Source: Pannonibacter sp. SL95
GTDB taxonomy: Bacteria > Pseudomonadota > Alphaproteobacteria > Rhizobiales > Stappiaceae
Length of the DNA stretch: 64,000 nt
NCBI RefSeq assembly: GCF_026672425.1
Contig: NZ_JAPPRC010000006.1
Span: 1,302,001-1,366,000 of the forward strand
Direction: 5' to 3'
The translations under genes and the position numbers were made by a program. Below are positions 26,452 through 36,051 of the stretch, piece by piece (the first letter of the stretch is position 1; every line of letters starts with the position of its first letter). The notes beneath the pieces are model-generated. The model had not been told where the DNA came from, made no database searches, and saw only the letters and a program-made list of their open reading frames with translations.

Positions 26452-27885
26452 ATGCGCGACTATCCCGATCTCCAGCTTTACATCGGCGGCGCCTGGCGCA
26501 AGACGGCGGACCACCTGCCGGTGATCAATCCGGCCGACGAGACCGAGATCGGCAAGCTGCCCGTCGCTGCGACTTCTGACCTCGACGATGCCCTTGAGGC
26601 GGCGGCGCGCGGCTTCGAGATCTGGCGCCGGACCGCACCGATGCGCCGGGCCGAGATCATCCGCAAGGCGGCAAGCCTCCTGCGCGAGCGGGTCGAGGAC
26701 ATCGCCCCGGACATCACCCGCGAGCACGGCAAGACGCTGCAGCAGGCCCGCCTCGAAGTGATCCGCGGCGCCGAGTTCTTCGAATGGGATGCCGGTGAAG
26801 CCGAGCGTCTCTATGGCCGCATCATCCCCAGCGAGCCGGGCATCCGCTACATGGTGCATCACCAGCCGATCGGCACGGTGGCGGCCTTCTCGCCCTGGAA
26901 CTTCCCGCTCAGCCAGCCGGCCCGCAAGGTTGCCGGCGCGCTCGCTGCCGGATGCTCCATTATCCTGAAAGCCGCCGAAGAAACCCCGGCTGGCGCCTGG
27001 CACATCGCGCGCGCTTTCCATGACGCCGGCCTGCCGGCTGGCGTCTTGAACCTCGTCTTTGGCGTACCGGCGACGATCTCGGACTATCTGATCCCGCAGC
27101 CGCAGGTCCGCCTCGTCGCCTTCACCGGCTCGACCGTGGTCGGCAAGCACCTGACCGGGATCGCCGCCCGCTACGCCAAGCCCGTGCTGATGGAACTGGG
27201 CGGTCATGCCCCGGTGATCGTCTGCGATGATGCGGATCCGGTGAAGGCCGGCATCACCTCCGCCATCCGCAAGGCGCGCAATGCCGGCCAGGTCTGCACC
27301 TCGCCGACGCGCTTCTTCGCCGATGAAAAGATCTTCGCCGCCTATCGCGATGCCTTTGTCGAGCGTGCAAAGGCCGTGAAGATGGGCAACGGCCTCAACC
27401 CCGAGACCGAAATGGGCCCGACTGCCAACCACCGCCGCGTCGAGGCGATGGAGATGCTGGTGGCCGACGCCGTGGCCAAGGGCGCCAAGCTGCTGACTGG
27501 CGGCCAGCGCCCGAACACGCCCGGCTACTTCTATCCGGTCACCGTCCTGTCGGAAGTTCCGGACGATGCCCGGGTGATGCAGGAGGAGCCCTTCGGCCCG
27601 CTCGCCATCATCAATCCGGTGGCGTCGCTGGACGAGGCGATCAAGCGCGCCAATGGCGTGCCCTATGGCCTGGCCGCCTATGCCTTCACCAACTCCGCCG
27701 CCAATGTCGACCGCATCACCGATGAGGTCGAGGCCGGCAATGTCTCGATCAACACGCTGGAAGCCTCGGTTGCCGCGACGCCCTTCGGCGGCGTCAAGGA
27801 AAGCGGCTTTGGCCGCGAAGGCGGAGCGGAAGGCATCCTGCATTACACGGTCGTCAAGACCGTCTCGCATCGCATGGAAATCTGA
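26452..27885 (+). CDS. NAD(P)-dependent aldehyde dehydrogenase
   Basis: 477 residues from the ATG at 26452, which gives the usual N-terminus (LYIGGAWRK...INPADE); the frame is open from 26368. ALDH superfamily motifs: SPWNFPLSQPARK, FTGSTVVGKHL, catalytic glutamate in LMELGGHAP, and catalytic cysteine in NAGQVCTSPTRFF. Closest in style to succinate-semialdehyde/2-aminomuconate-semialdehyde dehydrogenases. Next to a 3-hydroxyanthranilate dioxygenase it could oxidise the semialdehyde ring-cleavage product. First gene of the operon behind the LysR-type site. Confidence 0.88.
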   Translation: MRDYPDLQLYIGGAWRKTADHLPVINPADETEIGKLPVAATSDLDDALEAAARGFEIWRRTAPMRRAEIIRKAASLLRERVEDIAPDITREHGKTLQQARLEVIRGAEFFEWDAGEAERLYGRIIPSEPGIRYMVHHQPIGTVAAFSPWNFPLSQPARKVAGALAAGCSIILKAAEETPAGAWHIARAFHDAGLPAGVLNLVFGVPATISDYLIPQPQVRLVAFTGSTVVGKHLTGIAARYAKPVLMELGGHAPVIVCDDADPVKAGITSAIRKARNAGQVCTSPTRFFADEKIFAAYRDAFVERAKAVKMGNGLNPETEMGPTANHRRVEAMEMLVADAVAKGAKLLTGGQRPNTPGYFYPVTVLSEVPDDARVMQEEPFGPLAIINPVASLDEAIKRANGVPYGLAAYAFTNSAANVDRITDEVEAGNVSINTLEASVAATPFGGVKESGFGREGGAEGILHYTVVKTVSHRMEI

Positions 27886-27947
27886 CCGGCCACGCTGGCT
27901 GCCCCGACCCCTTTCGACCGGCACCGGTCCTGCATGAGGTTGCTGAC

Positions 27948-28904
27948 ATGAAATACTCCCGCAAGGACGCCAAGGCGCATGCATTCGCCACCATGCGCGG
28001 CATCTGGGCTGCAGCCCTGATGCCCTTCCGCGAAGACCTCTCGATGGACGAGGAGGGCTTCCGCGCCAACATGAACCACTGGATCGACGACCTCGGCATC
28101 GACGGCTTCTTCATCGCCGGCAAGCAGGGCGAGTTCTTCTCCATGTCGCTGGACGAGCGCAAGCGCTGCTTCGATCTGGCCGTCGAGGCGGCCGGCGGCC
28201 GCGCCCAGACCATCATGTCCTGTTCCGACCAGAACATGGACGTGGTGATCGATCTCGCCCGCCATGCGCAGGCTTGCGGCGCCGACTATATCGTCGTGCA
28301 TGCGCCGATCCTGCATTTCTTCAAGGCCCAGGATGAGACGCTCATCCGCTACTACGAGACGATTGCCTCGAAGGTCGACATCGGCATCGCGCTGTGGTCG
28401 CATCCAGACAGCGGCTACCTGATGAGCCCGGAACTGTGCAACCGCCTGGCCGATATCGAGAATGTCGTCGCGATCAAGTATTCTGTCCCGCGCGACATGT
28501 ACAAGCAGCTCACCGCGCTTGCCGGTGACCGCATCCTCGTCTCGACCGCCTCGGAAGAGGAATGGCTGGACAACATCCTGGAGCTGAACTGGCAGCTGTA
28601 TCTCTGCTCGTCGCCCCCGTATCTGATCCAGACCGCCGCCGACAAGCGCATGCGCGCCTACACGGATCTTGCCTTTGCCGGCAAGGCCGACGAGGCGCGC
28701 GCCATCAGTGCCTCGCTTGAGCCCGTCCGCCACGCGCTCAAGAGCACCCGCCCTGCCGAAAAGCCCCATTCGCACCAGAAGTACTGGCAGGACCTCCTGG
28801 GCCAGACCGGTGGCCGGGTCCGCCCGCCGCTGCTCGAACTCACCGAAGAAGAAAAAGCCCGCACACGGGCCGCATTTGACGCTTGCGGGCTCAAGCTCGC
28901 GTGA
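27948..28904 (+). CDS. Dihydrodipicolinate synthase-family (DapA-fold) lyase or hydratase, atypical active site
   Basis: 318 residues, TIM barrel of the DapA/NAL superfamily. The Schiff-base lysine is present (Lys177 in VAIKYS). The other catalytic residues of true DapA are not: the GTTGE loop is G-K-Q-G-E (58-62) and the YNxP tyrosine position is Trp150 (ALWSHPDSG). So it is not a lysine-pathway enzyme (a normal dapA lies at 55678) but a paralogue acting on another 2-oxo acid by aldol cleavage, dehydration or hydration. It sits between the aldehyde dehydrogenase and the ring-cleavage dioxygenase. Confidence 0.8.
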
Positions 28905-35120: not shown

Positions 35121-35172
35121 CGCTGACGGACTGGGATTGCTGCGACCCTGACTGGCTGAAAGGAAAACAGAG

Positions 35173-36051
35173 ATGTCCGATCTTCCCGCAACGGCTGCAG
35201 GTCTTATCGCCGAGGGCAACTGGCCACGCGATCGTCTGGATGGCGACTACACCGCACGCAACTGCGTCGCGCCGGACGTCTTCACGACCATCATCGGTGA
35301 CTATTTGTCACGCTCGGCTCCAGCCAGAGCCATGGCAGGGGCGCGGCTGGATCTCGTCTATGACGAGACCAGCGGCGAGAAGCTCGACCTTTATGGCACC
35401 CGCGCGGGCGAACTGCGCCCGCTGGTGCTGTTCATTCACGGTGGCTACTGGCGCGCCCTGTCAAAGGAGCATTCGGCCTTCATGGCCCCGATGCTGGCAG
35501 ACCTTGGGATTGCGTCCGCTGCACCGGATTACACGCTTGCACCGGCCGCCAGCCTCACCGAGATCACCCGCCAGATGCGCGCGGCGCTGGCTCATCTCTG
35601 GCACAATGCCGACAGCCTTGGCATTGACCGCAACCGGATTGTCGTGACGGGCAGTTCCGCAGGCGGCCATCTGGCCGGGACGCTGATGATGGGCGGCTGG
35701 CAGGACAGCTTCGGGCTGCCTGCGCAGGTCCTCAAGGGCGCTTTGCCGCTCAGTGGTCTGTTCGAGCTGGCCCCGGTGGCTGGCTCCCATGTTCAGGACT
35801 GGATGCAGCTGACGCCAGACGAGGTGCAGGCCCTCAGCCCCTTGCGTCAGATCGATGGCGCGCCGCGGTCCGTCATCGCCGTGGCTGAACACGAGACAGC
35901 CGGCTTCCATCGCCAGACCCGCGCCTATGCAAATGCGCTGCAAGCACCCGAAATCATCGCAAGCGGGCGTAACCACTTCGACATCGTCTTCGATCTCTGC
36001 GATCCCTCCACCGACGTCGGCCAGGCGCTGCTGCGTCTGGTCACTGCGTGA
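35173..36051 (+). CDS. Alpha/beta hydrolase of arylformamidase (kynurenine formamidase) type
   Basis: 292 residues. FIHGGYWRALSK is the oxyanion HGGYW motif of the AFMID arylformamidases; nucleophile in VTGSSAGGHLAG (about residue 162); catalytic histidine in GRNHFDIVFDL near 263. AFMID enzymes hydrolyse N-formylkynurenine and N-formylanthranilate. No tryptophan dioxygenase or kynureninase is in view, so N-formyl(hydroxy)anthranilate or a ring-cleavage amide is more likely here. Last gene of the operon, 52 bp after the dehydrogenase; a strong hairpin follows. Confidence 0.8.
   Translation: MSDLPATAAGLIAEGNWPRDRLDGDYTARNCVAPDVFTTIIGDYLSRSAPARAMAGARLDLVYDETSGEKLDLYGTRAGELRPLVLFIHGGYWRALSKEHSAFMAPMLADLGIASAAPDYTLAPAASLTEITRQMRAALAHLWHNADSLGIDRNRIVVTGSSAGGHLAGTLMMGGWQDSFGLPAQVLKGALPLSGLFELAPVAGSHVQDWMQLTPDEVQALSPLRQIDGAPRSVIAVAEHETAGFHRQTRAYANALQAPEIIASGRNHFDIVFDLCDPSTDVGQALLRLVTA

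Follow-up and report, generated by a model that had tools for sequence, protein, structure and literature searches.

A 64,000-nucleotide stretch of the genome of Pannonibacter sp. SL95 (the window) carries an operon for ring cleavage of 3-hydroxyanthranilate, and very probably its enzymes form a dedicated degradation route that does without the decarboxylase (ACMSD) of the ring-cleavage product, 2-amino-3-carboxymuconate semialdehyde (ACMS). A divergent gene for a LysR-family regulator is followed by genes for an aldehyde dehydrogenase (ALDH), a DapA-family protein (DapA-like), 3-hydroxyanthranilate 3,4-dioxygenase (3-HAO), a periplasmic binding protein, the importer subunits livHMGF, an aspartate dehydrogenase-like protein (AspDH-like) and a hydrolase. 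This content and order, proposed in an initial annotation of the window, held when checked gene by gene (Table 1). 3-Hydroxyanthranilate is a central metabolite of tryptophan, and quinolinate and picolinate arise from its ring-cleavage product. From the protein families we judge that a known ring cleavage is joined here to a putatively new lower route; uptake of 3-hydroxyanthranilate and all reactions past ring cleavage are predicted. The host genome (G000) measures 5.04 Mb in 6 contigs, with the window on contig C6, and the closest named match to the DapA-like protein, at 99%, is from Pannonibacter carbonis.

The 3-HAO scores above both equivalog cut-offs (TIGR03037, 262.6 bits for 145.95; NF009763, 277 for 220) and matches PDB entry 1yfu at 251 bits. 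Aligned with 1yfu, it keeps H50, E56 and H94, which we take to be the iron ligands, R46, R98 and E109, presumably the substrate residues, and four cysteines, in agreement with the annotation's statement that all catalytic residues are present. ACMSD was sought with a profile (A1) aligned from six ACMSD genes adjoining 3-HAO in other genomes, for which the solved ACMSDs in the PDB were the best match, at 504 bits. The whole host genome gave no match to this profile at E limits of 1e-3 and 1e-50, so that the lack of ACMSD noted for the operon extends genome-wide and a classical route with ACMSD encoded elsewhere is ruled out. Nothing in the host genome reaches the cut-off for dmpG aldolase (best 78 of 286 bits) or for dmpH (best 203 of 350.55 bits). 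A 2-aminomuconate deaminase, also stated to be missing, is indeed absent from the operon; the adjacent CoA-ligase operon encodes a RidA-family protein (23111-23575), RidA being the superfamily of 2-aminomuconate deaminase, and this protein is a candidate for the missing deaminase, although genes of its type lie near just 6 of 80 DapA-like loci. The operon thus resembles the ACMSD-dependent pathway (nba/onb genes, kynurenine lower pathway) in its ring cleavage by 3-HAO and in its importer family, which accompanies 3-HAO and ACMSD in genome G667. It differs in lacking ACMSD, an ALDH of the 2-aminomuconate semialdehyde dehydrogenase (AMSDH) type and 2-aminomuconate deaminase, and in having a DapA-like protein, an AspDH-like protein and another ALDH, or a molybdenum (Mo) enzyme, instead.

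Genomes with 3-HAO were collected in two samples. PF06052 matched 45 of 398 Pseudomonadota genomes, 26 of them strongly (at least 140 bits, taken as 3-HAO; next best 30), and 0 of 14 control genomes; TIGR03037 found 3-HAO in 36 of 385 genomes of the host's class. ACMSD was called at 490 bits or more, a limit chosen once the gap below it was apparent (next best 182 bits in the phylum sample and 257 in the class sample), and DapA-like at 54% identity or more (next best 31% in the phylum sample). Among the 26 genomes of the phylum sample, 9 had ACMSD (at least 495 bits), 10 had DapA-like (at least 62% identity), none had both and 7 had neither; the corresponding numbers among the 36 of the class sample were 5 (at least 494 bits), 22 (54-100% identity), 0 and 9. 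In the union, counted by hand, 57 genomes (five shared) comprise 27 with DapA-like (DapA-type), 14 with ACMSD (ACMSD-type), none with both and 16 with neither. The cluster is no peculiarity of the host genome, being found in many relatives from soil and sea. Below the calling limit, five more genomes of the phylum sample (25-182 bits) and twelve more of the class sample (up to 257 bits), three of each being DapA-type, gave weaker matches to the ACMSD profile, so that at the search E limits some match was present in 14 of 26 and 17 of 36 genomes.

The hypergeometric chance of such exclusion is 1.9e-5 for the union, with further values of 0.0037 and 0.0053, but these values are not proof, because the 3-HAO tree shows mostly one event. 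On this tree of 58 rows (13 of the 14 ACMSD-type, 12 of the 16 with neither, and 33 hand-picked DapA-type), the DapA-type label needs just 2 changes. DapA-type rows lie among ACMSD-type rows, the nearest of which come, with weak support, from outside the class. The tree suggests that DapA-like replaced ACMSD mostly by one event, possibly with a single origin. Both types occur within one family, f180 (G667, ACMSD; G738, DapA-like). Searches for dmpH, dmpG and kynureninase covered 24 DapA-type genomes, three of the 27 being left out as less complete, and kynureninase was over cut-off in 20 of these 24. Plasmids also carry the gene: DapA-like had a best match of 60-90% identity in 47 of 72,556 plasmid records, including NZ_CP010591.1, with carriers in Ensifer, Shinella, Ruegeria and Phaeobacter. 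Nine alphaproteobacterial genomes with 3-HAO (G581, G664, G735, G666, G737, G489, G583, G466 and G568) had neither ACMSD at 490 bits nor DapA-like; a second, weaker 3-HAO match was seen in G583, G666 and G737.

Gene content was surveyed in the best 80 of 316 DapA-like loci, with flanks of up to 10 kb on each side (short in 16 of the 80) and set identity limits for each gene. 3-HAO was found in 79 loci and in all 64 with full flanks, the exception (L016) ending 0.2 kb past the DapA-like gene, and no ACMSD occurred in the flanks of any of the 80. AspDH was present in 62 (55 of the 64 with full flanks), binding protein in 68, livH in 67, LysR in 61, hydrolase in 58, ALDH in 48, a Mo subunit in 23, a flavin monooxygenase (FMO) in 18, a Hod-like dioxygenase in 17, and kynureninase (Ensifer/Sinorhizobium, Stappia and others) and RidA in 6 each. 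The smallest set, on a Shinella plasmid, consists of kynU and ALDH, then LysR, then DapA-like, 3-HAO and AspDH. A Phaeobacter gallaeciensis plasmid has DapA-like, AspDH, LysR and kynU, with no 3-HAO within 11 kb.

In the DapA-like loci, two aldehyde-oxidising families take each other's place. At E<=1e-100 the window's ALDH matched PDB entries for succinate semialdehyde dehydrogenase (463 bits), ketoglutarate semialdehyde dehydrogenase (447 bits) and one unspecified dehydrogenase, none named AMSDH; in L137, an ACMSD-type locus, the ALDH does match AMSDH, at 727 bits. By these matches, the window's ALDH and the standard route's AMSDH are different enzymes. In an enlarged set of 97 DapA-like loci (the 80, the window and 16 further ones), ALDH was present in 52, a Mo subunit beside DapA-like in 33, both in none and neither in 12. 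The Mo call used a limit of 400 nt; a Mo homologue in L155 lies just past it, and L150 has a remote one. On a DapA-like tree of 55 rows, built by a quick method with no bootstrap and leaving out the 12 loci with neither and near-identical rows, the ALDH/Mo label changes 10 times, at least 4 of these changes being forced by well-supported branches. The Mo subunit is closest to the glyceraldehyde dehydrogenase alpha subunit (512 bits, under the model cut-off of 790), and in the 23 surveyed loci the end of its match falls anywhere from 36 nt upstream of the DapA-like gene to 12 nt within it. An aldehyde-oxidation step is best supported by this exchange, at one place, of two unrelated oxidoreductases of aldehyde-oxidising families. 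The annotation's suggestion of a different lower route is supported, as is its view of the operon as a unit; ACMSD is lacking genome-wide, and the ALDH is not AMSDH-like.

Public records seen for the DapA-like protein name it just "dihydrodipicolinate synthase family protein". It is not the DapA of lysine biosynthesis, since it reaches 89.7 of 206.15 bits with TIGR00674; a separate true dapA lies in the window at 55552-56556 (318.8 bits). An AlphaFold2 model (pLDDT 92.2) has the barrel of dihydrodipicolinate synthase (DHDPS) and N-acetylneuraminate lyase (NAL) and superposes on 5zka with a Z of 33.9 and a root-mean-square deviation of 2.1 over 290 aligned residues. The structure neighbours listed are of the DHDPS, NAL, YagE and HOGA types and do not separate the lyase subfamilies. 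NAL and DHDPS are its best matches in both fold and sequence (best 4woq, 102.7 bits), at about 22% identity and with altered pocket motifs. K177, unchanged in all 24 orthologues compared (identity as low as 52%), aligns with the lysine of NAL and NahE, which we take to be catalytic there; with fold and conserved lysine both present, the protein belongs among the Schiff-base lyases of the DapA superfamily. The carboxylate motif reads GKQGE in place of GSTGE or GTFGE (GKQ in 24 of 24 rows; GKQSE in L155), and the tyrosine of YxxP is replaced by a tryptophan, W150, invariant across the 24 orthologues. Given these two changes, the pocket is likely adapted to another substrate, and a basic residue in the carboxylate site, K59, would be well placed for one more carboxylate. 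NahE, the trans-o-hydroxybenzylidenepyruvate hydratase-aldolase of plasmid NAH7, shares the superfamily, the aligned Lys-Tyr positions and a GxxGE motif. It differs in its low identity (21%), in having the YxxP tyrosine and GTFGE where DapA-like has tryptophan and GKQGE, and in its substrate, that proposed for DapA-like bearing an extra carboxyl and an amino group.

The AspDH-like protein has both Pfam domains of L-aspartate dehydrogenase NadX and lies over the cut-off of the NF009828 subfamily (232.6 bits; cut-off 177), and it matches PDB 2dc1 at 97.5 bits. In contrast to NadX, it falls short of the equivalog TIGR03855 (131.9 of 206.55 bits), and its gene sits in a catabolic-looking operon. 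In the phylum sample, AspDH (PF01958) was found in 10 of 10 DapA-type genomes versus 2 of the 16 others with 3-HAO. AspDH as a unique marker of the DapA-type route was nevertheless dropped on the class-level counts given below. Another pairing of AspDH with a DapA-family gene close to kynurenine catabolism is seen in the ACMSD-type genome of L137 (8207-11653), where kynureninase is grouped with an AspDH-like gene and a DapA-family gene of another kind.

We propose the following scheme. If N-acyl-3-hydroxyanthranilate is imported, the hydrolase would trim the N-acyl group. 3-HAO would open the ring, giving ACMS, HOOC-C(NH2)=C(COOH)-CH=CH-CHO, and ALDH, or the Mo enzyme in many relatives, would oxidise its aldehyde to 2-amino-3-carboxymuconate, which would also block cyclisation to quinolinate. 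The imino tautomer of this product, HOOC-C(=NH)-C(COOH)=CH-CH2-COOH, would present the group R-CH=C-C(=N)-COOH (R = CH2COOH) that enzymes of the NahE type hydrate and cleave; NahE itself acts on R-CH=CH-CO-COOH. The DapA-like lysine would form a Schiff base at C2 and, as a hydratase-aldolase, the enzyme would cleave between C3 and C4, yielding malonate semialdehyde and oxaloacetate or iminosuccinate; the extra C3 carboxyl would give oxaloacetate in place of pyruvate. AspDH-like would then convert iminosuccinate, or oxaloacetate and ammonia, to aspartate, and the nitrogen would be saved. Such a single scheme would explain the presence of the ALDH or Mo enzyme, DapA-like and AspDH as well as the absence of ACMSD, AMSDH and deaminase. 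That the LysR-controlled operon imports 3-hydroxyanthranilate or an N-acyl form of it and degrades it by this full scheme has, on the sequence evidence, about an even chance of being right. We regard as equally balanced the wider view that the scheme represents a third enzymatic fate of ACMS, retaining the carboxyl and ending in a C3 semialdehyde and oxaloacetate or aspartate, which would have taken over from the ACMSD route about once and been passed among Alphaproteobacteria in part by plasmids, with repeated swaps of the ALDH/Mo step.

Several findings weigh against the scheme. The features that we take as functional in hydratase-aldolases of the NahE type, the YxxP tyrosine and GT-x-GE, are replaced in DapA-like by W150 and GKQGE; Schiff-base aldol chemistry is not assured, because the protein lacks both this tyrosine and a GST or GTF motif. 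Most of the exclusion between ACMSD and DapA-like goes back to one replacement event, and six DapA-type genomes (G194, G197, G238, G450, G653 and G725) have ACMSD-profile matches of 25-198 bits, which we read as probable other decarboxylases. Six loci with full flanks have neither ALDH nor Mo enzyme nearby. AspDH was present, in the class sample, in 19 of 22 DapA-type genomes, 4 of 5 ACMSD-type and 6 of 9 with neither, and G214 and G551 have copies of 32-34% identity close to ACMSD or kynU. The absence of dmpG is weak support, because dmpG over cut-off is also missing in 9 of 14 ACMSD-type genomes and is found in 3 of 24 DapA-type ones.

Some of these points would fit a DapA-like enzyme that replaces ACMSD as a Schiff-base decarboxylase, taking the C3 carboxyl (as of a beta-imino acid) off 2-amino-3-carboxymuconate or ACMS, with 2-aminomuconate or 2-oxoadipate to follow and AspDH-like as a reductase. 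The exclusion in 57 genomes fits a like-for-like replacement, the aldolase tyrosine and the carboxylate motif are changed, and AspDH-like genes occur near ACMSD in G214 and G551. However, AMSDH, deaminase, dmpH and dmpG would then be expected; the operon has none of them, dmpG and dmpH fall below cut-off in the whole genome, and the ALDH is not AMSDH-like. A branch through 2-oxoadipate would need neither dmpG nor dmpH. We consider such a decarboxylase unlikely. The same genes also fit the reverse order, in which DapA-like would cleave ACMS to iminosuccinate or oxaloacetate and malondialdehyde, and ALDH or the Mo enzyme would oxidise the C3 dialdehyde; the Mo subunit directly before the DapA-like gene (23 loci) does not fix the order of reactions. 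Early oxidation would be the advantageous order, because ACMS turns to quinolinate without an enzyme, and malondialdehyde is reactive; cleavage before oxidation is thus a distinctly unlikely course.

The annotation had also allowed that the true substrate is another aminophenolic acid and the product not ACMS. The upstream genes do vary (FMO in 18 and Hod-type in 17 of 80 loci), and a CoA-ligase operon lies next door, but the substrate residues of 3-HAO are kept, in the tree the 3-HAOs of DapA-type genomes fall among those of ACMSD-type genomes, and kynureninase is in the cluster in 6 of 80 loci and in Shinella. With the importer family found beside 3-HAO and ACMSD in G667 and kynureninase in several DapA-type clusters, the idea has lost ground and we hold it to be improbable. 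A role in NAD synthesis, in which ACMS would go to quinolinate and AspDH would supply iminosuccinate for the aspartate route, recalls that AspDH (NadX) and 3-HAO are NAD-related in other organisms. Yet the importer, LysR, ALDH/Mo enzyme and lyase look catabolic, oxidation of ACMS would stop quinolinate formation, and the NadX equivalog cut-off is missed; this role can hardly be credited.

The excerpted text of PMC7842363 describes a fungal catabolic set of 3-HAO, ACMSD, AMSDH and a putative deaminase, and the conversion of ACMS to quinolinate without an enzyme; that of PMC4539516 describes a bacterial 3-hydroxyanthranilate route by meta-cleavage, and that of PMC8879955 the coexistence of the 3-hydroxyanthranilate (onb) and 2-aminobenzoyl-CoA (abm) pathways in one bacterium. 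The full-text literature searched, with subscription papers mostly outside its scope, held no description of an ACMSD-free 3-hydroxyanthranilate route. If real, this further pathway would assign a role to a DapA-family enzyme, involve 27 of the 57 3-HAO genomes sampled and account for the AspDH genes in such clusters.

On the entry side, the HGGYW motif of the operon hydrolase was confirmed, but its naming as an arylformamidase did not stand: the protein is of the BD-FAE/HSL type, and KynB is ruled out, TIGR03035 not being among the 5 families matched at E<=1e-5. The genome's own arylformamidase (L156; TIGR03035, 249.6 of 223.05) lies elsewhere, over cut-off as is tryptophan 2,3-dioxygenase, and together with kynureninase (306 bits), at C6:188000-204000, about 1.1 Mb from the operon. 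The operon hydrolase is perhaps an N-acyl-amidase. Versions of it in L077 (16477-17613) and L138 (2859-4058) have an N-terminal extension of about 150 residues; Pfam on L077 gave hydrolase domains only, the extension having no match.

The importer is exchanged for a TRAP transporter in Ruegeria and for a different ABC transporter in Shinella. In G667, 3-HAO and ACMSD are accompanied by an importer of the window's family (52-66% identity), a hydrolase extended at its N-terminus, a RidA protein and an ALDH that shares 32% identity with that of the window. Thus importer and hydrolase, which occur with ACMSD in G667, the importer being exchangeable, seem by their distribution to belong to entry, 3-HAO seems to be common, and the lower route seems to be the part that differs.

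FMO and Hod-type genes lie directly before the operon-like hydrolase in several loci, and beside the cluster in L019-L052 (Aminobacter, Mesorhizobium, Nitratireductor and others); the Hod-like protein matches 1H-3-hydroxy-4-oxoquinoline 2,4-dioxygenase at 269 bits. The "anthranilate" route of quinaldine and 4-quinolones uses a monooxygenase, Hod/Qdo and an amidase. The FMO (18 of 80 loci) and Hod-type (17 of 80) genes of the relatives resemble it and suggest a possible feeder for 8-hydroxylated 4-quinolones such as xanthurenate. Here they would feed cleavage of 3-hydroxyanthranilate, not anthranilate, and they are absent from the window's cluster.

The features of the operon are collected in Table 1. 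The annotation had called it a tight unit with overlaps of 1-14 bp from livH to AspDH; overlaps of 4, 4, 7 and 14 bp come near this claim, but the operon start is looser, with gaps of 62, 25 and 129 bp and then 202 bp between binding protein and livH. The gap between AspDH and hydrolase is 52 bp. The segment 30769-30835, spanning the hairpin of the table, folds at -39 kcal/mol (z -3.1; 1 of 200 shuffles equally low), and the hairpin would perhaps give a higher level of binding protein. The LysR site noted earlier was found as a T-N11-A box; of the three Pannonibacter loci compared, L002 has it unchanged, and L003 and L004 each differ at one central position. Promoter and terminator scans gave signals no better than chance, or below.

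Table 1. Features of the operon and its control region (positions in the window).
Feature	Position	Strand	Basis and proposed role
LysR-family regulator	25381..26283	-	PF03466/PF00126; divergent to operon
LysR box TTTATCCGATAAA, T-N11-A, perfect dyad	26332..26344	.	sequence and comparison with L002-L004
ALDH	26452..27885	+	PF00171, 500 bits; proposed oxidation of ring-cleavage semialdehyde
DapA-family lyase	27948..28904	+	PF00701, 121 bits; proposed 2-amino-3-carboxymuconate hydratase-aldolase
3-HAO	28930..29472	+	PF06052, 178 bits; TIGR03037 and NF009763 over cut-off
Periplasmic binding protein of importer	29602..30768	+	PF13458
GC-rich hairpin in binding-protein/permease gap	30788..30820	+	folding energy versus shuffles
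livH-type permease	30971..31885	+	UrtB/LivH models, below cut-off
livM-type permease	31882..32868	+	open reading frame; order conserved in relatives; family named by reading
livG-type ATPase	32865..33620	+	open reading frame; order conserved in relatives; family named by reading
livF-type ATPase	33614..34315	+	open reading frame; order conserved in relatives; family named by reading
AspDH-like protein	34302..35120	+	PF01958, 108 bits; proposed iminosuccinate/oxaloacetate handling
BD-FAE/HSL-type alpha/beta hydrolase	35173..36051	+	PF20434/PF07859 (BD-FAE/Abhydrolase_3); possible N-acyl-3-hydroxyanthranilate amidase

A separate operon lies upstream on the same strand (17190-25336). It encodes a protein of the bifunctional salicylyl-CoA 5-hydroxylase/oxidoreductase type (NF006101, 1300 bits; cut-off 1078), a short-chain dehydrogenase/reductase, an enoyl-CoA hydratase family protein (NF006107, over cut-off), an acyl-CoA dehydrogenase, a thioesterase, the RidA-family protein and a benzoate-CoA-ligase-family protein just under cut-off (363 of 375 bits). 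By these matches it is a probable 2-aminobenzoyl-CoA (anthraniloyl-CoA) or salicylyl-CoA operon, and we take it to resemble the 2-aminobenzoyl-CoA pathway of Azoarcus evansii. Its RidA, hydroxylase and ligase types are near 6, 5 and 5 of the 80 DapA-like loci. Before it, on the other strand, lies a fused anthranilate synthase gene (14491-16770). Past the hydrolase, 36434-40743 holds a phnC-type phosphonate ABC ATPase (TIGR02315, over cut-off), then a putative binding protein and two permeases, named by reading.

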